A stretch of DNA of 64,000 nucleotides. Origin: Spartobacteria bacterium LR76 (GTDB lineage Bacteria; Verrucomicrobiota; Verrucomicrobiia; Chthoniobacterales; Terrimicrobiaceae). The position numbers and the translations under genes were made by a program. This document shows positions 37,076 to 56,455 of the stretch, in pieces. The stretch spans positions 434,001 through 498,000 of the forward strand of contig QAYZ01000015.1 in assembly GCA_003054655.1 (NCBI GenBank), in the 5' to 3' direction. Numbering within the stretch: the stretch's first letter is position 1; every line of letters starts with the position of its first letter. A model generated the notes under the pieces. That model was given only the letters and a program-made list of their open reading frames with translations. It did not search any database and was not told the DNA's origin.

Positions 37076-37519
37076 GAAGAAAAGGACAGCGGGGTTTCTT
37101 TCGGAGTCCCGCCGAGTGAGAAAATAAATCACCCTGTCCGTGCAAAGGCAAGCGCAACACGAAAAATAGCCGAGCAAACATACCCGGCGCTTCCCGGCCG
37201 CAGCCGGACTCACATCCCGTGCCAACACGTTGGAGCCAGACGTATTGTTCCTTCAAGATTCGATTTCCGGAGAGATGCCCTCTTGCGCCTCTTTGATCAT
37301 TCGAGCGACATCGGCTTAACCCGCTGTAAACACCTCGTGAGCTTCCCCCGGTGATCGGGCCAGAGCAGAGCCGAGGATCGGCTTCGAAAAGGAATACCGA
37401 TTCCGATCGGGGGGGTCTTAATCATGAATTTATTTCATGATTTCCATAAAGAGATATCGTGCTCATAGTCGGTCGACTGCTGGTCTTTGAGAGCCATTGA
37501 GGTACTTCCAATCAAAGAT
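37076..37519. other. 444-bp gene-free stretch: porin promoter region with dyad operator
   Basis: No credible gene is seen here on either strand. Between tRNA-Val and the porin it holds the strong dyad at 37421-37443. A weaker inverted GATCGG/CCGATC pair lies at 37376-37381 and 37404-37409. Promoter elements for both the tRNA (leftward) and the porin (rightward) must lie here, but none is convincing by eye. Confidence 0.6.
37421..37443. promoter_or_regulatory. Dyad operator AATCATGAA-N5-TTCATGATT upstream of the porin
   Basis: A perfect inverted repeat with 9-bp arms and a 5-bp spacer, ending 76 bp before the likely porin start. Its core, TCATGAA-N5-TTCATGA, is repeated exactly in the LysR/nas intergenic region at 56437-56455. 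It is therefore a candidate binding site for the LysR regulator encoded there. Confidence 0.6.
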
Positions 37520-38953
37520 ATGGAAGATATAAACGCAAAAATGGCGACTCCGTTCATGAACACCTTTCATCAGGCATGCATGGCCGCGCTCATGGTTATC
37601 TTTATTTCCACAGCGGGCACGGCGCGCGGACAAAATAAGATAATTCCTCAATGGGACGGGAAATATGCCTCGGGCGACTGGTTGGGAGTCCGAAGCCTGC
37701 TAAATGACAGAGGATTGGTTTTCGGCATCGAATGGAAGGCCAACCTCCTCGGGATCGTCGATGGCGGCTTGCAGCAGCGTGGAGGGTTTGACGAGGAGTG
37801 GAAATTCCGAGGCACCCTTGACCTCGCAAAAATGACAGGCTGGGAACCGCTAAATGGTTTGAGTCTCTTTGCGGATGTGCGGTGGCGCGATGGAGACGGC
37901 ATCAATAAATACTCTGGTGCCAGTCCGATGTTCGGCCCCAGCACGTTCCAGGGCGGAAAGCAGTGGCGCTTTCTCAATGCCTACGCGACCTACACGACGC
38001 CGGAGATGCTCGGAATCAAAGATTTCCTCACCCTTTCCGGAGGCTGGCAGAATCCCTCGGACATTTTCATCAAGCAGCCCGAGTCGAAATTTTTCGTTAA
38101 CAACACCTTTAACTCGGGCCGGGGCATCAGTGCCAATGGCATTCCGTGGGGCGGCAGTTACTCGGCCTGGGGAGGCTATGCCAAGGTGAAGCCGGCCGAT
38201 TGGGCGTATGTGCAATCCGGCCTCTATCTGGCGGTGCCAAATGCCACCAACACCCGCAATCACGGCTTGTACTTCGCAGGTTATCGGATCAATCCGGAGT
38301 TGAATGGCTTGTACTGGCTCACGGAGGCGGGAGTGACGCCGAAACTCGGCAACTCCGCGCTGCCGGGTCGCTATGCTGCCGGGTTCATCTACTGGGGAGT
38401 GGAGAATACCGCCTTCCTCGGAGAGCGTTATGATCAGAAAGTCCTCTTCTACTGGCAGGCGGACCAGATGCTTTTTCGCGAACCGTCGCGTGTCCCGACA
38501 TCCCCCGTTCTCGGAAAAGGGTCCTCTGACGGAAAGGCGGCCATTGATGGCAAGTCGCTGACGACTCCCGCCTCTCCCGAGAAGCCCAAGCTCAACGAAC
38601 AGGGGCTCTATTTCTTCAGCCTTTTCAACTACGCGCCTTCCTTCAACAACACGCTGCCCTTCTATTTTCAGACCGGGCTCATCTACAAAGGTCTCCTCCC
38701 GTACAGGGATAATGATCAACTCGGCGTGGCCCTCGCCTACGGCAACTACAGCTATGACAAGATCGTCGCAGAAGATAATCGCGGCATAGATACCCACCAA
38801 ACCTATGAGGCCGTGCTGGAGTTTGACTACAGGATCCAGATCACCCAATGGGCTTATGCCCAGCCGCTGGTCCAGTACATCATTCGGCCCAGTGGTACCG
38901 GGCTTGTCCAGAACGACACGATCCTCGGTCTTCAGCTCGGAGTGATTTTTTAA
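37520..38953 (+). CDS. OprB-family outer-membrane porin
   Basis: About 477 residues from the ATG at 37520. ATGs at 37541 and 37556 are possible, the last giving the cleanest signal peptide (MNTFHQACMAALMVIFISTA). The mature protein starts with the OprB pattern (GDWLGVRSLLNDRGLVFGIEW) and has alternating beta-strands, ending LGLQLGVIF, a C-terminal aromatic typical of outer-membrane barrels. OprB proteins usually admit carbohydrates. Here the gene sits next to zwf and shares an operator with the nas operon, so nitrate or another anion is a possible substrate (inference). Confidence 0.88.
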   Translation: MEDINAKMATPFMNTFHQACMAALMVIFISTAGTARGQNKIIPQWDGKYASGDWLGVRSLLNDRGLVFGIEWKANLLGIVDGGLQQRGGFDEEWKFRGTLDLAKMTGWEPLNGLSLFADVRWRDGDGINKYSGASPMFGPSTFQGGKQWRFLNAYATYTTPEMLGIKDFLTLSGGWQNPSDIFIKQPESKFFVNNTFNSGRGISANGIPWGGSYSAWGGYAKVKPADWAYVQSGLYLAVPNATNTRNHGLYFAGYRINPELNGLYWLTEAGVTPKLGNSALPGRYAAGFIYWGVENTAFLGERYDQKVLFYWQADQMLFREPSRVPTSPVLGKGSSDGKAAIDGKSLTTPASPEKPKLNEQGLYFFSLFNYAPSFNNTLPFYFQTGLIYKGLLPYRDNDQLGVALAYGNYSYDKIVAEDNRGIDTHQTYEAVLEFDYRIQITQWAYAQPLVQYIIRPSGTGLVQNDTILGLQLGVIF

Positions 38954-38958
38954 TCCCT

Positions 38959-40458
38959 ATGTCCGTGCTCGCAGGCCGCATCTCGCCGGAACCGTGCTCG
39001 CTGGTGATCTTTGGAGCCACCGGAGATCTGACTCATCGCAAACTCATCCCGGCGCTTTACAATCTGACCGTGGAAAACGCGCTGCCTCCGGAGTTTTCCG
39101 TGATCGGATTCGCCCGTCGGGAGAAATCCGACGTCATCTTTCGTTCCGAGCTGGAGGCTTCCGTCCGAAAGTACTCCCGGCAGGGAGTGAACGACGGCTC
39201 CTGGGCGGAATTTGCCTCATCAATTTTCTATCATCGGAGCGAGTTCGATAACGAAGCCGGATATCTCGCTCTCGCGGAACGATTGAAGGACCTCGATCAC
39301 GAGCGGGGCACCCGCGGAAACCGGCTGTTTTATCTCTCTGCGGGGCCGGACCAGTTCGAAACCATTCTCCGCCACCTCGAAGCGAGCGGATTAAAAAAGG
39401 CAGCCGAAGGAAGCTGGGCTCGCGTGATCGTCGAGAAACCCTTCGGCACCGATCTCGCCAGCGCGCAAAAGCTCAATGCGCTGGTGGAGGAGGTTTTCCC
39501 GGAGTCCGCCACCTATCGGATCGATCACTATCTCGGAAAGGAAACCGCGCAGAACATCATGGCTCTAAGGTTCGCCAACTCCGTCTTCGAGCAACTATGG
39601 AACTCGCGCTACATCGACCATATCCAGATCACTGCAAGCGAACCGCTTGGAGTGGAGGGTCGGGCAGGATATTATGACAAATCCGGCGCAATGCGGGACA
39701 TGGTGCAGAATCATCTCCTGCAACTCCTCTGTCTGGCTGCCATGGAGCCGCCCGTCGGCCTCGATGCGGATGCCATCCGGGATGAAAAGGTCAAGGTTTT
39801 GAAATCGTTGCGTCGCATCGGCGGCGACGACGTGAAAAGACAGATTGTCCGGGCGCAGTACAATGCGGGAACAGTGCAGGGACGGCGGGTACCAGCCTAC
39901 CGGGACGAAAAGGATATCGACCCCGATTCAGGCACGGAAACCTACGTGGCGCTGCAACTGAATGTCGACAACTGGCGCTGGGCAGGCGTGCCGTTCTTCA
40001 TGCGAGTCGGCAAGCGACTGGCCAAGAGCGGCACCCAGATTTCGCTCCATTTCCGGGAGTCGCCTCCCGTGCTGTTCAACGCTGCGGGCGATACGAAGGA
40101 CAATGTCCTCGTCATTCGCATCCAGCCGGATGAGGGAATAACTCTGCACATGAATGCAAAGCTCCCGGGCAACACCTCGCACCTGCATCCGGTGCGCATG
40201 GATTTTCACTATCATACGACCTTTGAGCGGGCGAATCCGGAAGCCTATGAGCGTCTCCTGCTGGACGCCATGAGCGGGGACGCAACGCTATTCGCCCGCC
40301 GGGATGAGGTGGAAGAGGCGTGGAAATTTGTCGACGATATTCGCGAGGCTTGGGAGGCAAACGATGCCGATCTTGCGTTTTATCCGGCGGGAACCGCTGG
40401 TCCTTCCGAAGCGGATGATCTTATTCGCCGATTTGGTTTTGAATGGCGCGATATCTAG
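38959..40458 (+). CDS. zwf: Glucose-6-phosphate 1-dehydrogenase
   Basis: 499 residues from the ATG at 38959, 5 bp after the porin stop. The coenzyme motif SLVIFGATGDLTHRKLIPAL is at residues 14-33, the active-site motif RIDHYLGKETAQNIM near residue 190, and VIVEKPFGTDL precedes it. It oxidises glucose-6-phosphate to 6-phosphogluconolactone, producing NADPH. The porin-zwf pair and the shared operator suggest that the NADPH supports the nearby flavoprotein/nitrite reductase. A general glucose-uptake unit is an alternative. Confidence 0.96.
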   Translation: MSVLAGRISPEPCSLVIFGATGDLTHRKLIPALYNLTVENALPPEFSVIGFARREKSDVIFRSELEASVRKYSRQGVNDGSWAEFASSIFYHRSEFDNEAGYLALAERLKDLDHERGTRGNRLFYLSAGPDQFETILRHLEASGLKKAAEGSWARVIVEKPFGTDLASAQKLNALVEEVFPESATYRIDHYLGKETAQNIMALRFANSVFEQLWNSRYIDHIQITASEPLGVEGRAGYYDKSGAMRDMVQNHLLQLLCLAAMEPPVGLDADAIRDEKVKVLKSLRRIGGDDVKRQIVRAQYNAGTVQGRRVPAYRDEKDIDPDSGTETYVALQLNVDNWRWAGVPFFMRVGKRLAKSGTQISLHFRESPPVLFNAAGDTKDNVLVIRIQPDEGITLHMNAKLPGNTSHLHPVRMDFHYHTTFERANPEAYERLLLDAMSGDATLFARRDEVEEAWKFVDDIREAWEANDADLAFYPAGTAGPSEADDLIRRFGFEWRDI

Positions 40459-40943
40459 CTGGCCTGGTCGAGTTCATGCCCGAGATGCCTCAGCCCCTCG
40501 CGCAGGGCTGGAACGAGCGGCGGGAGGCACTGGGAGATGGATCGTGGGTTCCCGGGAAGATTGAGAATAATCGTGCGTCCGCGTATCCCTGCGAGAGCCC
40601 GGGAGAGAATCGCGGTGGGAACGGTTGGAAACGAGAGCATTCGCATGGCCTCGCCGAAACCGGGTAATTCCTTCTCCACGACATCGCGGGTCGCTTCCGG
40701 CGTGACATCACGCACCGACGGCCCGGTGCCGCCGGTGGTAATCACCAGGGGAAGCTTGAGGTCGTCACAGAATTCCCGCAAGGCCGTGGCGAGCATCTGT
40801 CTTTCGTCAGGAAATACGCGGGCGACAAATTCCACTGGCTTTCCCCACGCAGAGGAAAAGACCCTCTCGATCTCAGGGCCGCTCAAATCCTCATACACGC
40901 CCGCACTGGCGCGATCGCTCAGGGTGACACGGCCGACGATCAT
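40455..40943 (-). CDS. mogA: Molybdopterin adenylyltransferase (MogA/MoaB family)
   Basis: 162 residues. MoCF-type motifs are present: LPLVITTGGTGPSVRDVTPEAT and NLPGNPRSISQCLPPLVPAL. It adenylates molybdopterin before molybdenum insertion by MoeA. The start overlaps the moaC stop (ATGA). It is the last gene of the leftward Moco operon and overlaps the convergent zwf stop by four bases. MogA and MoaB are close paralogues, so the symbol is a best guess. Confidence 0.92.
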   Translation of the reverse strand: MIVGRVTLSDRASAGVYEDLSGPEIERVFSSAWGKPVEFVARVFPDERQMLATALREFCDDLKLPLVITTGGTGPSVRDVTPEATRDVVEKELPGFGEAMRMLSFPTVPTAILSRALAGIRGRTIILNLPGNPRSISQCLPPLVPALREGLRHLGHELDQAS

Positions 40944-41389
40944 TCCTTGACCTTCTCTGTCACGCGCGTTTCCCCGATCACCATTCCCTTATCCACGGCT
41001 TTCATCATGTCATAGAGCGTGAGGGCTGCGACAGATGCTCCGGTGAGCGCCTCCATTTCGACCCCAGTGCGGGAAGTCGTCGATACCGTGCACCGGGTCT
41101 CGACAAAGTCAGCCGTTACCTGAAATTCCACTGCCACCTGATCGAGGGGCAGTTGATGGCAGAGCGGGATGAGCGTGGAAGTCATCTTGGCCGCCTGGAT
41201 CGCAGCGATGCGCGCAACGGCAAGCACGTCGCCTTTGGGCAGGGCCTGGGCTCGTAACGCCTCGATCGTCGCTGGGGCGCAAAACAAGCGGCTCACCGCG
41301 GTGGCGCGGCGGCGCTGCGCGGGCTTTGCTCCGACGTCCACCATGCGGGCTTCCCCGTGTGCGTCGAGGTGCGAGAATTTTCGGTCCAT
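40940..41389 (-). CDS. moaC: Cyclic pyranopterin monophosphate synthase MoaC
   Basis: 149 residues from the ATG at 41389 (MDRKFSHLDAHGEARMVDVG). Family blocks KGDVLAVARIAAIQAAKMT, TLIPLCHQLPLDQV, and TGVEMEALTGASVAALTLYDMMKAVDK are all present. With MoaA it makes cyclic pyranopterin monophosphate, the first step of Moco synthesis. It lies between moeA and mogA and is coupled to mogA by ATGA. Confidence 0.97.
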   Translation of the reverse strand: MDRKFSHLDAHGEARMVDVGAKPAQRRRATAVSRLFCAPATIEALRAQALPKGDVLAVARIAAIQAAKMTSTLIPLCHQLPLDQVAVEFQVTADFVETRCTVSTTSRTGVEMEALTGASVAALTLYDMMKAVDKGMVIGETRVTEKVKE

Positions 41390-41399
41390 CCCGAGGAGC

Positions 41400-42566
41400 C
41401 TACGAGGCGCTGACGATTTCAACAAGGCTCCCTGCGCGTGGAGACTCATTGGGCCGGATGCGGATGAGAGCATTCACCCCGAGAAGAGCCGAAAGATGTC
41501 CCGAGTCCAGCCAGGCCTGAGCTCTTACCTCTCCGCCGCCTGCGAGGGCCGGCCAATAGGTCTCTCTCTCATCAGGCACGAGCGCTGCACCCTCGCAAAG
41601 ATGGGCAAATATCATGGAAGGGATGTCCCATTGACCCAGCCGCCGCAGGATTCGGCTGACAAAAAGGTGGAACGTCACGAAGTGCGACACAGGATTTCCG
41701 GGCAGACCGACAGCCACCTGGTGCCCCCGCGTACCAAATAAGAACGGTTTGCCCGGCCGGCAGTTGACGGATCGGGAAAGAATGGCAAATCCGAGCCGCG
41801 TCAGGATTTCCGCCGTACGATCATACCGGCCTCCGCTGGAGCCCCCGGAAATCAAAAGCAAGTCGGCGTCACAAAATCCCGGTCCCTCGCATGCCATCAA
41901 CGCCGCCTCAAGACTCTCGTCGACATGCTGGTTTCCCACATAGGCAACGCCCATCTGCTCGGCCAAGGCTCGAATCAAGGGGCCATTCGTATTTCGGATC
42001 TGGCCGTGGGCGAGAGCCTCGGAAATCCCCACGATTTCGCGCCCCGTAGTCAGGTGCGCCACTCGCGGTCGGGGCACGACCAAAGGAGTGCTCTCCCCCA
42101 CCGCAGCAAGTACCGCGATCTCTGCGGGCGAAAGCATGGTCAAACCCGGAACCAGAATATCGCCGCGACGGGTGGCGCTTCCCCGGCGTCGCACAAATCC
42201 GTGCGGAGTGGAGAGTTCAAGGAGGATCTTGCCGTCGCGCTCCAAGATATCCTCCTGTTTGACCACCACGACCTCTTTCGGCAAGGCGGAGCCAGTGTAC
42301 ACTCGTGAGGCATGTCCAGGACTGATGCCACCAGAGGGAGGCTCTCCCGGCAGGATCTCATGCGAAATCGTCAGCCAACCCGGACCTGCGCCCTCCTGCA
42401 CGGCAAAGCCATCCATGGCGGAACGGTCAAAGGCAGGTTCATCCTCCCGCGCTGCGACATCCCCCCTGAGCCTCAGTCCACGGCATTCTTCAAGGGGAAT
42501 CCTGCGGGCGGGAAGGGGCAATACCTTCTCGTCAATTAACTCCAGCAGCCCGTCGACACTCAGCAT
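41400..42566 (-). CDS. moeA: Molybdopterin molybdenumtransferase MoeA
   Basis: 388 residues. Signatures include EPAFDRSAMDGFAVQ, TGSALPKEVVVVKQED, RPRVAHLTTGREIVG, and VGLPGNPVSHFVTFHLFV. It inserts molybdate into adenylated molybdopterin. The normally well-kept SGGVSVGDYD loop reads SGGSSGGRYD here, a notable change that leaves the trailing Asp. The start overlaps the moaE stop by 7 bp, and moaC follows after 10 bp. Confidence 0.95.
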   Translation of the reverse strand: MLSVDGLLELIDEKVLPLPARRIPLEECRGLRLRGDVAAREDEPAFDRSAMDGFAVQEGAGPGWLTISHEILPGEPPSGGISPGHASRVYTGSALPKEVVVVKQEDILERDGKILLELSTPHGFVRRRGSATRRGDILVPGLTMLSPAEIAVLAAVGESTPLVVPRPRVAHLTTGREIVGISEALAHGQIRNTNGPLIRALAEQMGVAYVGNQHVDESLEAALMACEGPGFCDADLLLISGGSSGGRYDRTAEILTRLGFAILSRSVNCRPGKPFLFGTRGHQVAVGLPGNPVSHFVTFHLFVSRILRRLGQWDIPSMIFAHLCEGAALVPDERETYWPALAGGGEVRAQAWLDSGHLSALLGVNALIRIRPNESPRAGSLVEIVSAS

Positions 42567-42946
42567 GACACCGCACCCACTTTCCAGATCGGGACATCCT
42601 TTTTCAGCCGATCCATAAAGGCCGACAACAAGCCAAAGCCCTCCTGCCGATGCCGGGAGAGAACGCCCACATAAATGGCGGCGTCTCCTACAGGAACGAA
42701 ACCGTGACGGTGAATTACCATCACCTTCCGGCAGGGAAAACTTTCCCTGAGTTCACCAAGAATCCTTCGAATTTCCTTCTCCGCCATGTCTGCATAAATT
42801 TCGTAATTGAGACCCGCGATCCGCTCACCGGCCTCTTCCTGCCGGATAATGCCATAGAACTCCGCCAGCGCACCATCGTTGCCCTCGACACCAAAACTCA
42901 CCGGGCGAGGGACGGCTTCCGTAAGAAATGTGACGATGATTTCCAT
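42560..42946 (-). CDS. moaE: Molybdopterin synthase catalytic subunit MoaE
   Basis: 128 residues. The family pattern GALAEFYGIIRQ, then GLNYEIYADMAEKEI, HRHGFVPVGDAAIYVGVLSRHR and the lysine-bearing KKDVPIWKVG is present. With MoaD thiocarboxylate it converts cyclic pyranopterin monophosphate to molybdopterin. It follows moaD by 4 bp and overlaps moeA by 7 bp. Confidence 0.95.
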   Translation of the reverse strand: MEIIVTFLTEAVPRPVSFGVEGNDGALAEFYGIIRQEEAGERIAGLNYEIYADMAEKEIRRILGELRESFPCRKVMVIHRHGFVPVGDAAIYVGVLSRHRQEGFGLLSAFMDRLKKDVPIWKVGAVSC

Positions 42947-42950
42947 CTCA

Positions 42951-43193
42951 TTAGCCTCCCGACACAGGCGGTATCACCGCGATCTCATCCTCCGTGCCAA
43001 AGGTTTCGCCGTCTGACAGGTAATGGCCATTTCGCGCCAGTCGTGCACCAGCCTGGACTGAGCCAAGATCGGGAAATGTGCATACCAGCCAGTCCCACAA
43101 GATTCCGGCAGTCTCCCCCCCTTGGTTGCGCCATTCGATTTCCCCGCAGCCAGCGGCGTCCCTTGCCTGGGCGAAAAAGAGAATCCTCGACAT
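42951..43193 (-). CDS. moaD: Molybdopterin synthase sulfur carrier subunit MoaD
   Basis: 80 residues with the beta-grasp fold of ThiS/MoaD proteins, ending in the diglycine VIPPVSGG needed for thiocarboxylation. It is flanked by moaA (3 bp upstream) and moaE (4 bp downstream). Although sequence similarity in this small family is weak, the ending and context fix the call. Confidence 0.93.
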   Translation of the reverse strand: MSRILFFAQARDAAGCGEIEWRNQGGETAGILWDWLVCTFPDLGSVQAGARLARNGHYLSDGETFGTEDEIAVIPPVSGG

Positions 43194-43196
43194 TCG

Positions 43197-44165
43197 TCAG
43201 CCTCCGATAGCTGTCATGGGGCGGCCGGGTTCATAGCAGCCGGAAAACTCGTGATTCTCCGGTTTATTCAAGATGGCCTCTCGCACGCTTTCCAAAAGAT
43301 CGCCATCCCTGCGAAGTGCGGGCATGAGATCGATCTCGCCATGCCTGCCCAGACAGGGGCGCAGTTTGCCGTCAGCGGTAAGTCGCAGCTTGTTACAAGT
43401 CCCGCAGAAATCGGGAGTGGTGAGTGCACCGATAAAGCCGACCCGCCCTCCCGTGGCCTCCACCCGGTAATAGCGCGCCGGGCCATGGCCGGGCCGGTAG
43501 GACGGTTCCGGCACCAGTTCCCCGTACTCTTCGTCAATCAACTGCTTCGCGTCTCCGATCGGGAAGAAGCTGTCCTCCCGCAAAACATCCTGCCGGGTCA
43601 ACGGCATCAACTCGATGAACCGCAAGGGCATCCCATGTTCTCCAGCAAAGCGGAGCAGCGGGAGAATCTCGGTCTCATTGACTCCGCGCATCAGCACGCA
43701 ATTCAGCTTCACGGTTTCAAAGCCCGCGTCCCGTGCGGCATCAATGCCCTGGAGCACGGCGGAAATGTCTCCGCCGGTAATCTTCCGATAGACCGATGGA
43801 GTGAGCGCATCCAGCGAGATATTTACTGATCGCACGCCGGCCTGCTTGAGCTCTCGTGCGCAGGCTGCGAGCCGGGTGCCATTGGTGGAGATTCCCAAAG
43901 CCTGCACGCCCGTCAGCTCCCAGATGCTTCGCGCAATTTCGACGATATCCGGGCGCAGCAGAGGTTCCCCGCCGGTGAGGCGAAACTTGCGGAATCCCAT
44001 CTCGCACGTGGCGGCAACCACCTGGACGATTTCCTGAGCGGTGAGATGATCCGCCTTGCGAGCCCACCCTTTGTAGCCCTCGGGCATGCAATAGAGGCAT
44101 CGCTCATTGCAGCGGTCGGTCACAGAGATCCGCAGGTAGTCAATGACTCTTCCGTAAGCGTCCAT
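43197..44165 (-). CDS. moaA: GTP 3',8-cyclase MoaA (radical SAM)
   Basis: 322 residues. The N-terminal cluster motif is CNERCLYCMPEGYKGW near residue 19 and the C-terminal cluster cysteines are in FCGTCNKLRLTADGKLRPCL. Both [4Fe-4S] clusters and the C-terminal diglycine (TAIGG) needed by MoaA are present. It cyclises GTP for Moco synthesis. It heads the leftward moa-moe-mog operon and is divergent from the MOSC-mobA pair across 70 bp. Confidence 0.97.
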   Translation of the reverse strand: MDAYGRVIDYLRISVTDRCNERCLYCMPEGYKGWARKADHLTAQEIVQVVAATCEMGFRKFRLTGGEPLLRPDIVEIARSIWELTGVQALGISTNGTRLAACARELKQAGVRSVNISLDALTPSVYRKITGGDISAVLQGIDAARDAGFETVKLNCVLMRGVNETEILPLLRFAGEHGMPLRFIELMPLTRQDVLREDSFFPIGDAKQLIDEEYGELVPEPSYRPGHGPARYYRVEATGGRVGFIGALTTPDFCGTCNKLRLTADGKLRPCLGRHGEIDLMPALRRDGDLLESVREAILNKPENHEFSGCYEPGRPMTAIGG

Positions 44166-44172
44166 CGCAATA

Positions 44173-44208
44173 AAGATTCGTTAACTTTTCACGGGTTGGT
44201 TGAATCTT
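44173..44208. promoter_or_regulatory. Weak inverted repeat AAGATTC-N22-GAATCTT between moaA and MOSC
   Basis: Perfect 7-bp arms in the short divergent promoter region of the Moco genes. The long spacer makes it a weak operator candidate, and it does not match the TCATGAA dyad found at the porin and nas promoters. Confidence 0.25.
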
Positions 44209-44235
44209 CAATCCGACATCGCGTATGCTGTCGCC

Positions 44236-45278: not shown

Positions 45279-45291
45279 GTTCATCGCGTCG

Positions 45292-47496
45292 TTATTGTCG
45301 GCCGAGGGGGGTGATCGCAACCGCGCAGGCCTTGTAGGATGGCTGGCGGGAATACGTGTCAAAAGCCGGGAAGGTCAGGCGGTTTACCTCGCGATAGTGC
45401 ATGGGAAGAAAGATCTGCCCGGGCTGCACCGTGGAGGTCACGGCAGCCTTGGCGACCAGTTCGCCGCGTCGGGAGGCAATACGCACCGACGAGTGGCGCG
45501 CGATGCCCAGCCTCCGGGCATCATCGACATGGATCTCAACATAACACTCCGCCGGGTAAAGCTTGCGCAGGACATCGGATTTCCCGGTACGGGTATTCGT
45601 ATGCCACTGCGACGATGTGCCGCGCCCGGTCAGAAGCAGGAAGGGATAGTCGATATCAGGGGCTTCCGGCATCGGGGCAGGTTCGTCGAAGAGTATCCGC
45701 GCCCGGTGATCCGGGGTGAAGAACCTCCCATCCTCAAACAGCCGCCTCTCCGCGCCCGGCGGCGTATCCGCAGTAAAGGGCCACTGGATTCCTCCCGCTT
45801 GGTCGATCATCCGATAGTCTTCGATCCCGGTAAATTCGCAGGGCTTTCCCCGAGTGATTTCCTTGAGGATCTGGAAAACCTTCTCCGGCGTCTGCCAGCG
45901 CTCGAACATTTCGGAGCATCCCCAGGAGTGCGCAATGAGTTGAAAGATCGAGAAATCGGAAAGCGCCTGCCCCGGCGCGCGGCGCACTTTCTTGATGACG
46001 CCGATGCGGCGCTCGGAGTTGATCAGGGTGCCATCCTTCTCCCCCCAGCCTGCCGCGGGCAGGATAAGATCGGCGCGCTGCGCTGTCTCGGTAGTGTGAT
46101 ACATGTCCTGCACGACAAGGAAATCCAGCTTGTCGAGGAGGCTATTGAAATCATTGTGGTTGATCCATGAGTGCGCCCCGTTGGTGGCGATCACCCACAG
46201 CGCCTTGATCCTGCCCTCATCGATGCCTCGCAGGATCTGGTCATACGCCATCGAGGACTGCTGCGGAATGGCGTTTTCATCGATCCCGAGAATCGTGGCG
46301 ACCTTCCGCCGATCAGCGGGATCCGAAACATCGTGTCCGCCGAGCAGGCTCGTGATGTTTCCAAAGACCCGCGATCCCATGGCATTGCATTGCCCGGTGA
46401 TGGAGTTGGCTCCCGTTCCCGGGCGGCCAATGTTTCCGGTGATGAGCGCGAGATTGATCAGCGCCTGGGCGGTGCGGGTGCCCTCGTGGCTTTGATTCAC
46501 GCCCATCGTCCACCAGAAGGAAACCCGCTTGCCATCAGCGATCGTCCTGGCAAACCGCCAGAGTTCATCCGCTGCGAGGCCGGTCTCCTGGCAAACCCGC
46601 TCTGTGGTGAATTTCGTGACAAACTCCGCAAACTCGCGAAACCCGGTGGTGTGAGCGTCGATAAACGGCCGATCAATCCACCCGCTGGCGATAAGGATAT
46701 TGGCTAATCCATAAAGCAGGACCAGGTCGCTCTTCGGACGGATCGGGTAATGCTGTGTGGCCGCCATCGCGGTTTCCGTCTTGCGAGGATCGACCACGAT
46801 GATCTCGGGGTTTCGCCGATTGCGCATGACACGCTGCCACATGATCGGATGCGCGATGCAGGGATTCGCCCCGACAAACACGAGTACGTCGGACTCCTCG
46901 AAATCGGCATAGGTAAAAGGAGGCGCGTCAAAACCGAACGACTGCTTGTAGGCCACATGAGCAGAGGCCATGCACTGCCTCGTGTTGCTATCGCAATGGA
47001 CGAATCCCATGCCAAATTTGTACAGGCACCCGAGATAGGCCATCTCCTCCGTAGTGATCTGCCCTGTGCTTAGGAAGGCCACCGACTCCGGGCCATGCTC
47101 TTCCTTGATCGCCTTCAACTTCTGGCAGAACACCTCCATGGCTTCCTCCCAGCTTACGGAATCAAGCTTCCCGCCACGCTGCCGACGTAGCATGGGAGCC
47201 ACCGCCCGGTCGGGCGCACTGAGGGGAGTCAAAGCTTCCCAGCCTTTGGGACAGGCCATCCCAAGATTGACCGGATATTCGGAATCGGCGCTGAGGTTGA
47301 TGGCTTCCCCATCCTTCAGGTGAACATTCAGCCCGCATCCCGTTGAGCAGTAGCCGCACACCGTGGTCGTGGTGGCATCCGGCTTGATGCGTACCGGCAC
47401 CTGACCCAGCCCAAACTCGCCCGGGTGGCGGATCAGTTCTTCGGTCAAAGGTCCCTTCCAGGATCGAAGGGTGAAATCAGGAAGTGCAAGTTTCAT
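45292..47496 (-). CDS. Assimilatory nitrate reductase catalytic subunit (NarB/NasA type)
   Basis: 734 residues, the size of cyanobacterial NarB. The N-terminal [4Fe-4S] cysteines are in [13 protein letters not shown] and ACPKGW. Molybdopterin-binding signatures include [54 protein letters not shown] and the C-terminal [21 protein letters not shown]. No twin-arginine signal is seen, so it is cytoplasmic. It lacks the extra [2Fe-2S] domain of some NasA proteins. Its start overlaps the stop of a DmsB-DmsC-like fusion, its probable redox partner. It ends the nas operon. Confidence 0.95.
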
Positions 47497-49091
47497 AGGC
47501 CTCCCGGCATTCGCAGCGCGACCACTGCGGTAAAGAAGATGTATCGCTCAAGGATCTGAGCGGCGCAGGCGCTAAGCAAGGCGATAGCCGCGGGAACCAT
47601 CGCCGCATCGGGAACTGCGATGACGGCCACCCAGCACGCCACGCTGACAGCCAGACAACCCGTTCTCGCGAACGAAACCCTCTTAAGGAGGTGCTCGGTG
47701 ATCAAAGCCGATTCATGGATCGCCGCCCGAGGATGGAGCAACGCCCGACAGTGGACAGCTTTTTCCCAGGCAAACATCCCAAGCTGCACGCAAAGAGCGA
47801 TTCCCGCCGCCGCGCGCAGCATGCTCTGATTTACCGTTTCCGAAGACAACCCGCCGAGAACGAGCGCGACCGGAATGCTGGCCGCTCCCAAGGCAAGGAC
47901 CGCTCCGTAGAAGCGAGGCATCGTCAGGGATGCCTTCCAGAATGCCCGGCGCGTATCGACATAGATCATCGCCGAGGTAAAGACCGCGCCGAGCCCCATC
48001 AAGGATGTCGCGAGGGCGGCGCCCCGGACAAGGCTCGAGCCGGGAAAGAACCAGCCCAGAGAGAGATCAGCCAATACCAGGCCGGGCAGGAGAGAGAACG
48101 CGAGGATCTCCCGGCTCATCCACGAGGTGCGCAAGCCCAGGAAAAAACGCCATGCGCCGACAGGCCTGCCCAGGTGGAAAACAGCGGCAAACAGACCGGC
48201 ATTTAGGAAGACGAAACCCGCACCCGCCAGACCGAGGACCGAATATGGCGCGACTCCGGCAAACTCGAGCACGGACTGGGCCAGAAACTGCCCGACCGCC
48301 AATTGCGTGAGCACAAGCATGACGATCAATGGCCAGTGCGCGTGCTCCAGATGAAGCCGCCCTGCGTCGGCTCCATGCGCGTCGGCCGGGACCGGACGGC
48401 TGGAAACATAGCGTGTGGTCGGCTTGGTGTAGCTCGAGTCGCAGGCTCCCGGCAGGATGGACTGCCCGGGACTCGCGGCCACGGTGACCTCCTCGATGTC
48501 GACCAGCTTGATGGTAATCGCCTCGTGAGGGCACGCCTGCACACAGGCCGGAGCCTCTCCCGCAGCTAGCCGATCGTGGCACATGTCACACTTTCGCACG
48601 ATGCCGAGACGCTCGGAGTATTTCGGCACGCCATAGGGGCATTTCATCGTGCAGTACTGGCAGCCGATGCACTGATCATCGAGGTGACGAACGATGCCGG
48701 TCGACGAGTCCTTCTCGTAGGCCATGACGGGGCATCCCTGAAGACAGCCGGGATCGGCGCAATGGTGGCAGGCCGTGGTGACAGTCTGCTGGTAGGATGT
48801 CTTGGTGCCATGGCTGAAAAGCACCCCGACGTCCCGCCAGGTCTCGTGCTCTTCCAGTCCGTTCAGCGAATGACAGGCACTCACACAGGCCTTGCAGCCG
48901 GTGCATTTGTCGAGATTCACCTCGAAGGAATATTGCTGCCCGGGCGCAGGCTTGCTGAGCGGAATCAGGTCGCGATAGTGCCGGGCCTGCGCCGGGAATG
49001 CCGCAGTCGCATGTTTTTGCGAAAAGCGCTCCACGGCCGTGAGCGACTGCTGCTCGGCAATGAGGCGATCAATGAGGGTAAGTTCACTCAT
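47493..49091 (-). CDS. DmsB-type iron-sulfur protein fused to DmsC-type membrane anchor
   Basis: 532 residues from the ATG at 49091. Residues 55-215 hold four ferredoxin-type cysteine groups: [38 protein letters not shown] and [21 protein letters not shown], enough for four [4Fe-4S] clusters. Residues 250-532 have about eight membrane helices of the DmsC/NrfD-like anchor type. The protein could pass electrons from quinol to the nitrate reductase encoded downstream, whose start it overlaps by four bases. No signal peptide is seen, so the iron-sulfur part should face the cytoplasm. It overlaps nirA by 8 bp. Confidence 0.9.
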
Positions 49092-50811
49092 TGCAAAACA
49101 GGCGCTGAAGCGTATTGACGTCATGCCTTGTCGTGAACTGCTGGAACGTTTCGCCGTTCTCGCGCAACTCAAGATAGACGCCGAGCATCTTTTCCAGCAT
49201 GGGCTTGAGCTCCTCCAGCGGCATGGCTTGAAAAATCTGCCGACCGCAGGCGGCATTCCGGCCAAATCCCCCGCCGACCGTCACGTGATAGGCCTCGCGT
49301 CCATCGCGGGTCTTGGCCCCGAGCAGCCCGATGTCGCCCATATAATGCTGGGCGCAGGAATGCGGGCAGCCCGTCACGTGAATATTCACCGGCTGGTCCA
49401 GTTGGACACGCTTCTCGAGATACTTCGTAATTTCCACGGCATGGGTCTTTGTATCCGTGGCCGCATACTTGCAGTAGCGGCTGCCCGTACAGGCGATCAC
49501 TCCGCTGGCGAGATGCGATTGCGTCGTGGCAAACCCCATGCGCAGCACGGCCTTTTTGACCGTTTCCACATAACCATCGGGAATGTTCGGAATGATGAAG
49601 TTCTGCCAGACCGTGAGCCGGATCTCTCCCGAGCCATAGTTATCTGCGAGTTCCGCGAGGCGAAGGAGTTGCCGGGGCGAGAGCTGACCGACGGGAACGG
49701 ATACTCCGAGATATTGCAGCCCCGGCTGCTTCTGCGGGAACGCGCCCACATGCGAATGCGGCAGATCCTGGGAGGGATATGTCAATTCCCCAGGTTCCAG
49801 AGCAGCTTTTCTTAGCGAATAGCCGAGCACCTTTTCCGTCTCGGCCAGATACTGTTCAAGCGTCCATTTTTCCAACAGGTGCTTCAGGCGCGCGCGCTTG
49901 CGGTCGCTGCGATTTCCATGAGCGATGAATACCCGGACAATGGCCAGTACCACGGAAACGACATCGTCCGGCTTCACCAACACCCCCAGGTCGCGGGCAA
50001 ATGCCTTGTGTCCGGTCGCGCCGCCAAGAACGATGCGAAACATCACCTCGCCGTCCCCGGTCTTCACCGCTTTCACGCCGACATCGTTGGTATCCTCGAC
50101 CGCCCCGATAAGGCCCCCGCCGTCAAATGCGATGTTAAACTTGCGCGGGAGATTATAGAACTCGCGATGCGAGATGATCAGGTCGGCCAATTCATTGATA
50201 TAGGGCCGACAATCGATCAGCTCGTACGGGTCGACGCCCGCGGTGGGGTTGACGGTCAGGTTGCGAATGTTGTCTGCCCCCGCGCCGCGAGTGTGCAGAC
50301 CCACCGATTGAATGCGCCGCAGAACCTCCGGAGTATCCTTGGGCTTGATCAGGCGAATCTGGAAATTCGCGCGCGTCGTGATCTGCACGTAGCCCGTGGT
50401 CAGCTCCGCCGCCGTGCGGGCGATCTCCCGGAGCTGATAGGATTTGACGATTCCTCCCGGGATGCGCAGCCGCGCCATGAAGGCGTCCTTTACCGGTGTA
50501 AGGTAAAAGAGGCCGTTCCATTTGAATCGAAAGACCTCTTCCTTTTCCGGCGCCTTGTTCGCGCGGGCATTCTCGACCAGGCGATAATAGGAATCCAGGG
50601 GATGCTCCTCGTTTTTGATGCGTTCCTCAGCCGTCAGGGTTGGCTCGTCCTCTGGCTCACACGCCGGTTCCGCCACGGCTGCTGCGCCTGCCGGGAAGAG
50701 ATCGGCGAATACGACGGCCCGTTGCTGCACGCCGGAGAAAAATCCCTCGAGATAGTTCTGCTGTTCCTGGTTAAGAGGCTTTCCTTCGATCTCCGTGATG
50801 GGCGCTGGCAT
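49084..50811 (-). CDS. nirA: NirA-family siroheme nitrite (or sulfite) reductase
   Basis: 575 residues. Two ferredoxin-like/siroheme halves are present (TGYVQITTRANFQIRLI; GEIRLTVWQNFIIPNI). The siroheme/[4Fe-4S] cysteines are in ACTGSRYCKYA and TGCPHSCAQHYMGDIG, at about residues 441, 447, 482 and 486. It reduces nitrite to ammonium in the cytoplasm; sulfite reductase is a close relative, but the nitrate context favours nitrite. Residues 13-32 (LNQEQQNYLEGFFSG) resemble the N-terminal helix of the CysJ-type flavoprotein encoded just upstream, suggesting complex formation. It overlaps the DmsBC-like gene by 8 bp. Confidence 0.92.
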   Translation of the reverse strand: MPAPITEIEGKPLNQEQQNYLEGFFSGVQQRAVVFADLFPAGAAAVAEPACEPEDEPTLTAEERIKNEEHPLDSYYRLVENARANKAPEKEEVFRFKWNGLFYLTPVKDAFMARLRIPGGIVKSYQLREIARTAAELTTGYVQITTRANFQIRLIKPKDTPEVLRRIQSVGLHTRGAGADNIRNLTVNPTAGVDPYELIDCRPYINELADLIISHREFYNLPRKFNIAFDGGGLIGAVEDTNDVGVKAVKTGDGEVMFRIVLGGATGHKAFARDLGVLVKPDDVVSVVLAIVRVFIAHGNRSDRKRARLKHLLEKWTLEQYLAETEKVLGYSLRKAALEPGELTYPSQDLPHSHVGAFPQKQPGLQYLGVSVPVGQLSPRQLLRLAELADNYGSGEIRLTVWQNFIIPNIPDGYVETVKKAVLRMGFATTQSHLASGVIACTGSRYCKYAATDTKTHAVEITKYLEKRVQLDQPVNIHVTGCPHSCAQHYMGDIGLLGAKTRDGREAYHVTVGGGFGRNAACGRQIFQAMPLEELKPMLEKMLGVYLELRENGETFQQFTTRHDVNTLQRLFCNE

Positions 50812-50812
50812 A

Positions 50813-52447
50813 TCAGTAGACGTCGCGCAGGTAGCGCTTTTCAGTTTTGAGTTGAGCTATGAAATCCGCCGCACCGTCCGGACTCAGGCCGCCCGCCATC
50901 TCGGCCACGCGATGCAGGGCAGCGTCGACGTCCTTTGCCATACGCTTCGCATCGCCGCAAACGTAGAAGCTCGCGCCATCCTGCAGCCAGGCCCACAACT
51001 CTCCGGCCTGCTCGAGCATGCGATGCTGCACGTAGACCTTCTCCCCCTGATCCCTGGAGAAGGCCAGGTCGAGGCGGGTGAGAGTTCCATCGGCCTGCAT
51101 GGCACGCAGTTCTTCACGATAGAGAAAATCACACTCCGAACGCTGGTCACCGAAGAAGAGCCAGTTCTTGCCCGAGGCTCCGGTCGCACGCCGTTCCTCA
51201 AGAAAGGCCCGGAATGGAGCGATGCCCGTTCCAGGACCAACCATGATCACCGGCCGGGAAAGGTCGGCGGGCAAACGGAAGGAAGGCGACTTGTGAACGA
51301 ACACCGGGACATGTCCCCCGGCATCAACCCGGTCCGCCAGATAGGTCGAGCAAACCCCTTTGATCTGTCGTCCTCCCGCCTCATAGCGCACGATACCCAC
51401 GGTCAGATGCACCTCTCCGGGATGAGCCTTCGGGCTGGAGGAAATGGAGTAAAGCCGGGGCTGGAGCTTGCGCAGCGGAGCGATCACGTCCTCCGCCGCA
51501 GACGCCTTCCCAGGCAATCCCGCCAGGAACGGCTTCAGGTCAAACTTCGAAATCAACGCCTCGCGCAGCGAGAGCTCCGCACTATTGACTACCACCATCT
51601 CCTCTCCGGTGAGACCGGACGTGCAAAGCACCTCGTCCACGAGATCGGGACAGTTGCGCGGCACGACACCGAGGGCATCCCCGGCCTCATACTCGAGACC
51701 GGAACCCGCCAGGGAGATCTCGAAATGACGTGTCTCTTTCGAGGATTCCGGACCATTAAGCAAACGGTTCGTCTTGAGTAGCGCGGGAAACGGGTTGGCT
51801 TTGCTGAAGGTCGGTGTGTCCGCCACGCTCTCTTTCTCCGGCTCCACGACACTGAGAGCCGACGCTGAGCCGCCCTCCAGTCGGGTGAGGAATCCGTCGA
51901 ACCAGGCATTGGCTGCCTCCTCATAGTCGACATCGCATTCCACGCGATCCAGAATGCGCGTGGCGGCCAACTCGGCCAATCGCGTATCGAACTTCCTGCC
52001 CGCTTCACAAAACAGTGTGTAGTTGCGATCTCCCAAAGCCAGCACCGAATAGCTTATCTGCTTGAGACCCGCCGCAGCTTCCCCTTGCAAATATTCCCAG
52101 AAAGACTGTGCGTTATCGGGCATCTCGCCATCACCGTAAGTGCTGGTGATGATTGCGACGCGGGGTTCGGCGGCAAAATCCACGGTGGCGTAGTTTTCCA
52201 TCCCGACCACCTTTGGTTCGTAGCCGCGCTTTTTCGCCTCTTTGGCAAAACGGCGGGCAAGACCCTCCGCCGAACCGGTCTGTGAGCCGTAAAGGAATAG
52301 AAGCGAGCCGCGGGATGGCTCCGCCGCCGCGACCGATGCCGAGGCGGAACTCCCTCCGCTGAAAAGCCCCGCGAGGTAGCCATTAATCCAGGCACGCTGT
52401 TCCGTGGAGAAGGGAGCGGCTTCGGGGATTTGCGGTATCGTGGTCAT
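50813..52447 (-). CDS. CysJ-like FMN/FAD flavoprotein reductase (electron donor)
   Basis: 544 residues. Residues 48-190 are a flavodoxin domain (LLFLYGSQTGSAEGLARRFA; ITSTYGDGEMPDNAQSF; LALGDRNYTLFCEAG). Residues 230-544 form the FAD/NADPH module (PRLYSISSSP, KGVCSTYLADR, MVGPGTGIAPFRAFLEERRA, YVCGDAKRMAKDVDAAL, ending RYLRDVY). It resembles sulfite reductase flavoprotein alpha, which feeds NADPH electrons to a siroheme enzyme. Placed one base before nirA, it probably supplies the nitrite reductase. The N-terminal FSTEQRAWINGYLAGLF matches the CysJ oligomerisation segment. Confidence 0.92.
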   Translation of the reverse strand: MTTIPQIPEAAPFSTEQRAWINGYLAGLFSGGSSASASVAAAEPSRGSLLFLYGSQTGSAEGLARRFAKEAKKRGYEPKVVGMENYATVDFAAEPRVAIITSTYGDGEMPDNAQSFWEYLQGEAAAGLKQISYSVLALGDRNYTLFCEAGRKFDTRLAELAATRILDRVECDVDYEEAANAWFDGFLTRLEGGSASALSVVEPEKESVADTPTFSKANPFPALLKTNRLLNGPESSKETRHFEISLAGSGLEYEAGDALGVVPRNCPDLVDEVLCTSGLTGEEMVVVNSAELSLREALISKFDLKPFLAGLPGKASAAEDVIAPLRKLQPRLYSISSSPKAHPGEVHLTVGIVRYEAGGRQIKGVCSTYLADRVDAGGHVPVFVHKSPSFRLPADLSRPVIMVGPGTGIAPFRAFLEERRATGASGKNWLFFGDQRSECDFLYREELRAMQADGTLTRLDLAFSRDQGEKVYVQHRMLEQAGELWAWLQDGASFYVCGDAKRMAKDVDAALHRVAEMAGGLSPDGAADFIAQLKTEKRYLRDVY

Positions 52448-54078
52448 GACAGGACTTTCCAGAGCAGGACGAGGCAGACCGCCAGCAGGAGCCAGAAGCC
52501 AGCCTTGTAGAAGAGGGTGGGATTTCGAGAAAAGAGCGGCTCAAAGGAATCCGCCGGAGCAGACGCTGGATGCTCCAGGGCAAAGAGCAACTCGGAGAAA
52601 TGTTGAAATCGACGGTCCGAGCGCAGGCTAAGGCACTTGAGGATCACGGCGTCGAGCCAGGGAGGGACATTCGGATTCCACCGGCTTGGCCGCTGAGCTG
52701 GATGAAATATGGGAGTCTGAAATCGCTCAATGCGACCGAACGGCAGACGACCGGTCAGGGCTTCGAATAGCGTCACTCCGATGGCAAATATCTCGGTTCG
52801 CTCGGTCACGACGGCTCCCTCGAATCGCTCTGGAGCCAGATAGGTGGGCGTGCCGGATCTTCCCGTGTCGGTGAAGACCGTCGATGCCAGTCCCAGGTCG
52901 AGCAGTTTAAACTCTTCGCCGTCGGGCGTTCTGACAAAAAGGATGTTCTCCGGCTTGATATCGCCATGGACCAGTTCGTGGCCGAGGAGCCATTGACCAG
53001 CCCGGGAGAGAAACCTGCCAAGCTCTATTGCCTCATCCACTGCCAGCCGCTTGGATTTCAACAGCGCGCTGATGGTCGGGGCATCGACATAGTCCTGCAC
53101 GTAGTAGTAAGCCGCGCCGCTCTCCGGCATCGTCGCGGTGACAAAGTAGGGAGCACGCAGGCGGCAGGCATTCCCGGCCTCACGGGCAAACCTGGCGTGA
53201 AGGTTACCGCTTTCATCGCGTTCCGCCTCGCCGGGCAGGAACTTCAGAACAAATCTCCGGGCTTCCTTTTCCGCCAGCCAGACGTTCTCGTTACCTCCCA
53301 GTGGGCGCAGCAGCTTGAAGCCGTCGATCTCCACGCCCTTGCCCAGAGGCGGGCGGCAGGGACCCGCCGCCAGAGTCCGGCCTTCAGGTTGAGACAGTTC
53401 CTTGACCTCCAGAAGGACGACCGTGAGATCGTCCGCATCAGCGGAGACGTTTTCCTGCAATGCTTCATGGATCAAGGTCCGGGCGGACCCAAACCTGCCT
53501 GCGAGCTTTCCGATCATTCCGATATCCATCAACGCGGGAAGGCCGTCCGAGGTGATCACCACGACGTCGCCTTCGCTCAGATCGGTTTCAAAGTAGTGCC
53601 CGGTGACGGCAGTCCCCATGCCAACGGCGTTCGTCAGCACGTCATTTCCGTCGGCGTTGCGGCACGAATGCGTCTGGCTGAGACAAACCGTATTGCCTTC
53701 TCTCACCAGTAGGATGGGAGAATCGCCGACATTGAACCCGCAGAGCCGGTTCTCATTCACGAATACAGCGGCCAGCGTCGCCTGCATGGAGGGTACTCCA
53801 TCAAGATAAGCACCCTCGCGATAGAGGCTGGCATTTGCCTCATCCACCAGCCGCTCGAAGACCTTTCGTAAAGGCCAGCCATTGGGCCTGGCCTCAAAGC
53901 CTTCGCTGATCAGGCGCACCACGCGCTCCGCAGCGCGAAGCGGGTCTCTCGCTGCGCCCACTCCGTCCGATAGCACACACAGCAGGCCGCCATCCGGCTG
54001 CGGAGAGATGGCAAAGGCATCCTCGCTCCGGCTTTTTCCAGAGGCGGGCAACCCAAAGCTGCTTGAGCGCAATTTCAT
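52444..54078 (-). CDS. PP2C-type phosphatase fused to Ser/Thr protein kinase, with C-terminal membrane helix
   Basis: 544 residues from the ATG at 54078. Residues 1-240 carry PP2C motifs SRSEDAF, CVLSDGVG, GFNVGDSPILLV, VITSDGLPALMD and DADDLTVVLLEV. Residues 260-510 are a kinase-like domain: ATP-lysine in FVLKFLPGE, catalytic loop HGDIKPENILF, LLDLGLAS in place of DFG, then SGTPTYLAPERFEG. The glycine-rich loop is weak (RPLGGNENVWLAE). The last 25 residues are a membrane helix. Such PP2C-kinase fusions occur in nas clusters of other bacteria, where they may regulate nitrate uptake (from memory). It lies between the transporter (5 bp) and the flavoprotein (ATGA). Confidence 0.88.
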   Translation of the reverse strand: MKLRSSSFGLPASGKSRSEDAFAISPQPDGGLLCVLSDGVGAARDPLRAAERVVRLISEGFEARPNGWPLRKVFERLVDEANASLYREGAYLDGVPSMQATLAAVFVNENRLCGFNVGDSPILLVREGNTVCLSQTHSCRNADGNDVLTNAVGMGTAVTGHYFETDLSEGDVVVITSDGLPALMDIGMIGKLAGRFGSARTLIHEALQENVSADADDLTVVLLEVKELSQPEGRTLAAGPCRPPLGKGVEIDGFKLLRPLGGNENVWLAEKEARRFVLKFLPGEAERDESGNLHARFAREAGNACRLRAPYFVTATMPESGAAYYYVQDYVDAPTISALLKSKRLAVDEAIELGRFLSRAGQWLLGHELVHGDIKPENILFVRTPDGEEFKLLDLGLASTVFTDTGRSGTPTYLAPERFEGAVVTERTEIFAIGVTLFEALTGRLPFGRIERFQTPIFHPAQRPSRWNPNVPPWLDAVILKCLSLRSDRRFQHFSELLFALEHPASAPADSFEPLFSRNPTLFYKAGFWLLLAVCLVLLWKVLS

Positions 54079-54083
54079 TCCAG

Positions 54084-56362: not shown

Positions 56363-56406
56363 GGCTTTCCTATAGCACCCTTCCTCGCAGCGAACTCGAT
56401 AAAAAC

Positions 56407-56436: not shown

Positions 56437-56455
56437 TCATGAATATTATTCATGA
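56437..56455. promoter_or_regulatory. Dyad operator TCATGAA-N5-TTCATGA between nas operon and LysR gene
   Basis: A 19-bp site with perfect 7-bp arms, containing the T-N11-A core of LysR boxes. The same arms and spacer length occur upstream of the porin (37423-37441). It reaches into the start region of the LysR gene, which suggests autoregulation. Confidence 0.65.

Follow-up and report, generated by a model that had tools for sequence, protein, structure and literature searches.

A dyad predicted to be a LysR operator at nitrate assimilation genes and at a porin–zwf unit of Spartobacteria bacterium LR76

LysR-type transcriptional regulators (LTTR) bind operators that follow the T-N11-A rule, and the promoters of their targets are usually of the sigma-70 type with −35 and −10 elements. 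Sigma-54-type promoters carry a −24/−12 consensus (GG-N10-GC, TGGCAC-N5-TTGCW-like) and need an enhancer-binding activator. In nitrate assimilation, the cyanobacterial LysR protein NtcB acts with NtcA, and NasS has NasT as its partner. The accessible text of a verrucomicrobial transcriptome study reports that nas genes are lowly expressed in the media used, mentions several ntrC-family genes and does not name a LysR protein for nitrate (PMC3404531). Our literature search, from which subscription journals were mostly excluded, found neither a described nitrate regulator for this bacterial group nor a report of the LysR site described here, of nitrate regulons that include a porin or of a LysR protein at sigma-54 nitrate promoters.

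The window analysed here is a stretch of 64,000 nucleotides (C13:434001-498000) in a genome of 4,745,694 bases, 16 contigs and 96 % completeness. It contains a nitrate assimilation (nas) island that shows the general LTTR arrangement: a regulator with HTH_1 and LysR_substrate domains, and an inverted repeat placed between lysR and its divergent target and overlapping the start of the regulator gene. The same repeat stands upstream of an OprB-family porin gene that is followed by zwf. Our aim is to describe both sites, their counterparts in related genomes and the regulon that they may define.

The nas island and its dyads

The features of the island are collected in Table 1. The porin start is uncertain, with ATG codons at 37520, 37541 and 37556; the zwf ATG lies 5 bp past the porin stop. 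An alternative lysR start is the ATG at 56461. The frame of the Fe-S/DmsC-like protein overlaps nirA, and its true start is probably lower. No Pfam match was found for the open frames at 44140-45362, between nasA and moaA. The earlier note placed the porin–zwf unit about 13 kb beyond the end of the nas operon. This is incorrect: the unit abuts the nas cluster, since the minus-strand nas and molybdenum cofactor genes reach 40455 and zwf ends at 40458, with OprB and zwf running toward that end from the side opposite to the minus-strand nas run.

Two further observations concern the gene map. Homologues of the phosphatase–kinase fusion adjoin narK in seven compared regions (L034, L147, L149, L181, L182, L183 and L194). 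At 34644-37013 a single frame of 789 residues encodes an apparent fusion of a lipid A acyltransferase with a glycosyltransferase-9 (heptosyltransferase).

Table 1. Coordinates of the dyads, promoter element remnants and genes of the nas island in the window
Feature	Position	Strand	Remarks
Dyad TCATGAA-N5-TTCATGA, porin copy	37422..37440	.	TCATGAATTTATTTCATGA; predicted LysR operator before the porin–zwf unit
−24/−12 element remnant, porin side	37466..37481	+	TAGTCGGTCGACTGCT; 27-bp offset; −12 kept, −24 not; score 6.6 of 11.3
OprB-family porin gene	37541..38953	+	PF04966, E 6.7e-30, over gathering score
Third dyad copy, one mismatch	37554..37572	.	Within the start of the porin gene
zwf, glucose-6-phosphate dehydrogenase	38959..40458	+	TIGR00871, 661.8 bits
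moaA, moaE, moeA, moaC, mog, molybdenum cofactor genes	40455..44165	-	Join the nas run to the zwf end
Molybdopterin nitrate reductase, NasA-like	45292..47496	-	Family searches
Fe-S/DmsC-like protein	47493..49265	-	DmsC match seen in relative L035
NirA-family sirohaem nitrite/sulphite reductase	49084..50811	-	NF007126 over cut-off
CysJ-like NADPH flavoprotein reductase	50813..52447	-	TIGR01931, E 3.6e-181 (below cut-off); NF004859 over cut-off
PP2C phosphatase–Ser/Thr kinase fusion	52444..54168	-	Family search
NarK-type nitrate/nitrite transporter	54084..55289	-	TIGR00886, E 2.9e-76, below curated cut-off
Nitrate-binding-type protein (NrtC C-terminal/NasS-like)	55286..56362	-	PF13379; first gene of the nas run
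−24/−12 element remnant, nas side	56374..56389	-	TGCGAGGAAGGGTGCT; 49-bp offset; −12 kept, −24 degraded; score 7.6 of 11.3
Dyad TCATGAA-N5-TTCATGA, lysR copy	56437..56455	.	TCATGAATATTATTCATGA; overlaps the lysR start codon
lysR, LysR-type regulator	56452..57360	+	PF00126, E 1.7e-16 (HTH_1); PF03466, E 7.2e-44 (LysR_substrate)

The earlier note described two copies of the dyad with the same 7-bp arms and N5 spacer, and both are present in the sequence. The site at the porin is real, one base to the left of the 37423-37441 given there. Its core, at 37424-37438, is separated from the ATG at 37541 by 102 bp, while the core of the lysR copy (56439-56453) lies 76 bp upstream of the start codon of the divergent nas run. 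The further claim that the window holds no other copy stands for exact matches only, as a third copy with one mismatch occurs at 37554-37572. That such sites are unlikely to arise by chance is confirmed by a scan of the window allowing up to two mismatches, which returned 3 matches against 0.20 expected, a number reached by none of 100 dinucleotide shuffles.

The whole-genome scan that had been proposed gave exactly two exact 19-bp matches in 4.75 Mb, both in the nas island, and dozens of unrelated matches did not appear. Allowing one mismatch genome-wide adds a single match, the third copy, and a reversed control pattern has no match in the whole genome. The exact long form is absent from all 57 relatives scanned. 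A protein search matched named relatives that are Verrucomicrobiota and Terrimicrobiaceae assemblies. Its 15-bp core, ATGAA-N5-TTCAT, occurs at seven places in the genome, three of them inside the nas island.

We scored core sites on spacer and flanking bases only, excluding the core arms, using lysR-start sites for training and leaving out the site's own genome; the lysR-start sites themselves score −5.6 to 14.3. The four core matches outside the island score −12 to −18. Their letter strings recur in the congeners G001 and G002, in which no close relative of the window LysR was found; for three of them the surrounding stretch aligns with a congener at 83-84 % with the core kept, and for the fourth, at C10:619054, the agreement is limited to the letters. 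Because they recur in congeners that lack the LysR, three of them in aligned stretches, we rejected these four matches as regulon members. A role as second operator was considered for the third copy (37554-37572), since in G043, a genome of another family, a core match likewise overlaps the porin start. These two sites score −7.29 and −13.18, respectively, below every lysR-start site, and are for that reason not counted as operators; the third copy is probably a chance match in coding sequence. Likewise dismissed was the core site that G043 has upstream of its second zwf (C19); its score of −14.41 is at chance level.

Occurrence of the dyad and of a −24/−12 element in the LysR lineage

To follow the dyad beyond this genome, we searched 213 genomes of the order for the LysR protein and obtained 29 matches with E values up to 1e-45, spread over 28 genomes and including the window's own LysR. 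The core dyad with at most one mismatch is found at 25 of these 29 genes (18 exact, 7 with one mismatch), at −13 to −16 from the projected LysR start. Among the four misses, one gene is cut by a contig end, one carries a doubly mismatched form at that position and two lack the dyad. Less related LysR genes show no such site: none of 25 carries the dyad, the best match having at least two mismatches (one of these genes has just 39 upstream bases). Across the class, 90 of 384 genomes searched have the LysR at E 1e-50, 80 of them lying outside the order. In the best-scoring 26 of those 80, the dyad is exact in 14 and present with at most one mismatch in 23, at −17 to −10 in 22 of the 23 and at −4 in the remaining one (L307). 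For the lineage as a whole, 48 of the 55 LysR genes examined, our own included, have the dyad with at most one mismatch (32 exact and 16 with one mismatch), counts that do not represent independent events because the genomes are related. Residues of the helix-turn-helix, including H39 and C50, are nearly fixed in this LysR group and not in the controls. The prediction that the dyad is the operator of this nitrate-linked LysR is thus well supported by comparative evidence.

We scanned for the exact core in 30 genomes, namely the 28 with the LysR plus G001 and G002. Three of the 28 hold no site; the other 25 hold 95, and the context of all 95 was examined. About one third (32/95) overlap the start of a nas-island gene homologue or stand no more than 400 bp upstream of one: 18 at lysR starts, 5 at narK, 1 at nirA, 3 at nitrate-binding-protein genes, 4 at OprB and 1 at zwf. 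Of two further sites, the one in G066 precedes an Alginate_exp porin gene and the one in G073 a gene that weakly matches nitrate-reductase gamma. The 37 core sites of 15 LysR-less genomes include none near a nas-island homologue, although such genomes may lack nas genes; eight of these 15 have four or more OprB-like matches. Location inside an open frame was discarded as a sign of a chance site, as it fails to divide the sites: 28 of the 32 near nitrate genes and 55 of the 63 others fall in frames of at least 100 codons.

Two genomes deserve separate mention. In G073 (L239 2055-3383) the dyad and a −24/−12 element precede the gene with the weak gamma match, whose 420-residue product is possibly another regulon member. 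In G198, lysR has the dyad, yet no nas homologue was found in the surrounding 35 kb; an OprB-like gene of 717 residues (L142 16240-19485) is convergent to this lysR.

Many of the dyad-bearing promoters share a second element. Toward the nas side, at 48-51 bp from the dyad, the form TGGCAY-N5-NNGCT, or a near form scoring at least 9 of 11.3, is present in 42 of the 48 lysR regions with a dyad (33 of 38 when non-redundant); the element was first seen by eye and then scored on those regions, the cut-off of 9 being chosen after looking. The same criteria pick out 17 of 11,400 shuffles and 58 of 20,000 positions drawn at random from these loci. The 24 control LysR regions all score below 9 (a 25th was too short). 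A cut-off of 8 is unspecific, with 1197 of 4000 random 95-mers reaching it somewhere, so the weight of the element comes from the cut-off of 9 in combination with the fixed offset. The element also occurs in two of the seven lineage regions that lack the dyad, and the six dyad-bearing regions without it are those of G000 (this genome), G043, G198, G086, G039 and G088.

The element is not confined to lysR regions. It stands 39-50 bp from the sites at narK (5/5), binding-protein (3/3), nirA, Alginate_exp and nitrate-reductase-gamma-like genes, two of these sites, both in G066, being near-copies. The narK, nirA and binding-protein sites were outside the first look by eye, and three porin regions were inside it. 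For the remaining core sites, the element is found at 47-52 bp in only 1 of 122 orientations, and in 3 of 122 if the range is widened to 20-79 bp. Taken together, these observations indicate that the lysR/nas element of the lineage fits a sigma-54-dependent promoter. This genome is an exception that counts against our best explanation, as neither of its dyad-linked promoters keeps the −24 half (Table 1); the nas-side element is also lacking in G043 and G198. The G043 porin promoter has TGGCATGCTTGATGCT at a 27-bp offset and the G051 porin promoter a weaker TCGCATCGTCCGTGCT at 48 bp. A general scan for sigma-70 promoters found nothing upstream of the porin of this genome.

The gene divergent from lysR is a frequent neighbour. 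Its product (55286-56362) has as best solved relatives NrtC, a nitrate transporter subunit (E 2e-57), and CmpC. A homologue lies beside lysR in 45 of the 55 loci, our own included. No hydrophobic N-terminus or evident signal peptide was found in the window protein, and none of the 45 homologues passes a crude hydrophobicity threshold for a signal peptide, two distant ones being Tat-like by eye. We consider the protein a candidate free-standing cytosolic nitrate sensor. Among the island proteins that were given family searches, none was named as NasT-like.

Porins and zwf at nitrate clusters

The dyad precedes an OprB porin gene in three genomes: this genome, G043 and G051. In G043, whose LysR and zwf are 71 % and 82 % identical to those of the window, the order is lysR, OprB, zwf, transaldolase (tal), and the core dyad lies 136 bp upstream of the projected porin start and 97 bp before an ATG at L067:16054. 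In G051 (LysR 66 %) the sole exact core site of the genome precedes OprB on a contig other than that of lysR, and the lysR start has a one-mismatch form of the dyad. The porin site of the window scores 5.11, above the window lysR site at 2.31. The corresponding porin sites of G043 and G051 score 0.29 and −2.43, and a few sites without nitrate genes fall in the lower part of the lysR-start range, at about the level of the G051 site. The flank score is no clean divider: 2 of the 32 sites near nitrate genes (the −13.18 and −14.41 sites of G043) score like chance. The earlier note had predicted that the LysR protein controls the porin–zwf unit, and the dyads at lysR starts, at nas genes and at the G043 and G051 porins lend support to that prediction.

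Both partners of the unit have several relatives in this genome, which holds 12 OprB-like matches and three zwf-like genes; G043 likewise has a nas-linked zwf and two others. In a tree, the nas-linked zwf genes of the two genomes form one clade with support of 100/100. A tree of 24 OprB proteins puts the three dyad-bearing porins in two separate places, those of G043 and G051 together (90/88). With zwf in one clade and the porins in two lineages, the porin appears to have been exchanged while the site and its zwf partner were retained. We compared 17 OprB loci and found zwf only at the two that are linked to this LysR (G000 and G043), and not within the 7-16 kb compared at the other 15. The link of a porin–zwf pair to this LysR is therefore seen in two genomes only.

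Other genomes have porins of other families in the same setting. Alginate_exp porins (Pfam) are encoded within the nitrate clusters of G073, G093, G084, G059 and G027, a Porin_5 protein within that of G079, and in G066 an Alginate_exp porin gene is directly behind the dyad. The Alginate_exp family was searched for in G001, G002 and 23 of the 28 LysR-bearing genomes, 25 in all; intact genes turned up in G002 and in 15 of the LysR-bearing set. In 14 of these 15 the distance from such a gene to lysR or to a core dyad is no more than 6 kb, G110 being the exception, and several genomes carry a second copy elsewhere. The G078 cluster has only a stop-interrupted Alginate_exp remnant, between the kinase gene and nirA (about L149 14795-15163; G078:C44:59894-60262). 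With Porin_5 and OprB searched less systematically, a porin belonging to one of the three families was seen at the cluster or next to a dyad in 17 of the 23 LysR genomes; G051, in addition to these 17, has the dyad-bearing OprB, unlinked to the lysR cluster. Among annotated open frames, no cluster porin was seen in G198, G105, G106, G110 and G078. Alginate_exp is absent near lysR in G105, G106 and G110, and from the whole genome in the first two, on whose examined contigs OprB was not found either. The presence of three unrelated outer-membrane families at the same position suggests that the nitrate pathway of these bacteria needs an outer-membrane channel.

A proposed nitrate regulon and its comparison with known systems

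What is seen directly are the sites, their ties to the LysR lineage and to nitrate genes, the repeats at the G043 and G051 porins and the porin–zwf pair. We propose that the dyad is very probably the operator through which the LysR protein regulates its own gene, the nas run and, in trans, the OprB–zwf unit. A LysR dimer, or half a tetramer, would read ATGAA-N5-TTCAT. At 56437-56455 it would regulate the divergent nas run and limit its own synthesis, and at 37422-37440 it would act in trans on OprB–zwf, presumably by activation rather than by repression. The signal would be nitrate, perhaps perceived via the neighbouring cytosolic nitrate-binding-type protein. The induced OprB may then form an extra outer-membrane channel that admits nitrate as its presumed solute, while the dedicated Zwf may supply NADPH to the CysJ-type flavoprotein and the NirA-type nitrite reductase of the island.

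It is conceivable that the dyad is read not by LysR but by another regulator, such as a general nitrogen regulator, acting on both promoters. Most dyad promoters also carry the sigma-54-type element, which implies at least one further protein there, an enhancer-binding activator. We regard this explanation as improbable in view of how closely the dyad tracks the LysR gene, being present at 48 of 55 genes of the lineage and at none of 25 others, and of its nearly fixed position over the lysR start; the lack of sites near nas homologues in the 15 LysR-less genomes (0/37) points the same way, though nas genes may be lacking there. A chance palindrome at the porin, next to an ordinary unit for sugar uptake and oxidation that happens to lie beside the nas island, is more improbable still. 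OprB members are usually sugar porins and zwf encodes a sugar enzyme, the genome has its 12 OprB-like matches, and the −24/−12 element is degraded at the porin promoter. Such a coincidence would have to account for two exact 14-base matches in 4.75 Mb that both fall in the island while the reversed control has none, for the repetition of the dyad at the G043 and G051 porins, for a spacer and flank score equal to the lysR-start level and for the presence of zwf beside OprB solely at the two LysR-linked loci of 17.

Alternatively, LysR may control both promoters while the porin takes up sugar, which would feed Zwf for NADPH during nitrate assimilation. Membership in the OprB family and the pairing with zwf, and with transaldolase in G043, are consistent with this possibility, and we take it seriously while leaning away from it. 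Other genomes place Alginate_exp or Porin_5 channels at this position, and no zwf match was seen in those regions, which argues that the channel as such matters and not sugar; in addition, the dyad-bearing OprB of G051 has no zwf within 9 kb. In our judgement the locus most likely represents a nitrate regulon equipped with an outer-membrane channel of its own and, in this genome, with a Zwf dedicated to NADPH production.

For the class as a whole, we advance a broader proposal tentatively, with its chances somewhat short of even. A LysR bound at a fixed 49-50 bp from sigma-54-type promoters would run nitrate assimilation, partnered by a divergently encoded, free-standing cytosolic nitrate-binding protein. 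It would also drive an outer-membrane nitrate channel of its own. Unrelated porins (OprB, Alginate_exp, Porin_5), encoded in the cluster or placed under the dyad, would have taken over this role from one another several times, and in this genome the channel would bring a dedicated Zwf isozyme for NADPH. For a large bacterial group, nitrate assimilation thereby gains an operator and a regulon that can be put to the test, and outer-membrane channels dedicated to nitrate are predicted. If true, a LysR operator at fixed spacing from a sigma-54-type promoter would be an unusual activation geometry. Plants link glucose-6-phosphate dehydrogenase to nitrate assimilation, and a nitrate-controlled Zwf, if true, would be a bacterial parallel.

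Compared with described systems, the locus combines familiar parts in a different arrangement. It shares the layout of the general LTTR pattern and departs from it at the target promoter, which in most relatives is of the sigma-54 −24/−12 type at 48-51 bp from the dyad. Like NtcB, the window LysR is tied to nitrate assimilation, and NtcB chains are among its solved relatives (8h3v, E 3.4e-11), but the closest of these by sequence is a chain of a Rubisco operon regulator (CbbR-type, E 7e-22); our literature search found no report of a porin or zwf in the NtcB regulon. The neighbouring protein resembles NasS and the C-terminal regulatory domain of NrtC/CmpC in having a nitrate-binding-type domain without an evident signal peptide, and differs from them in standing alone, its gene paired with a LysR gene rather than with NasT. 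Finally, the porin matches the OprB carbohydrate-selective family over the cut-off for PF04966 and has a weak match to Porin B of the PDB, whereas its gene adjoins nas genes and has a predicted nitrate-regulator site.
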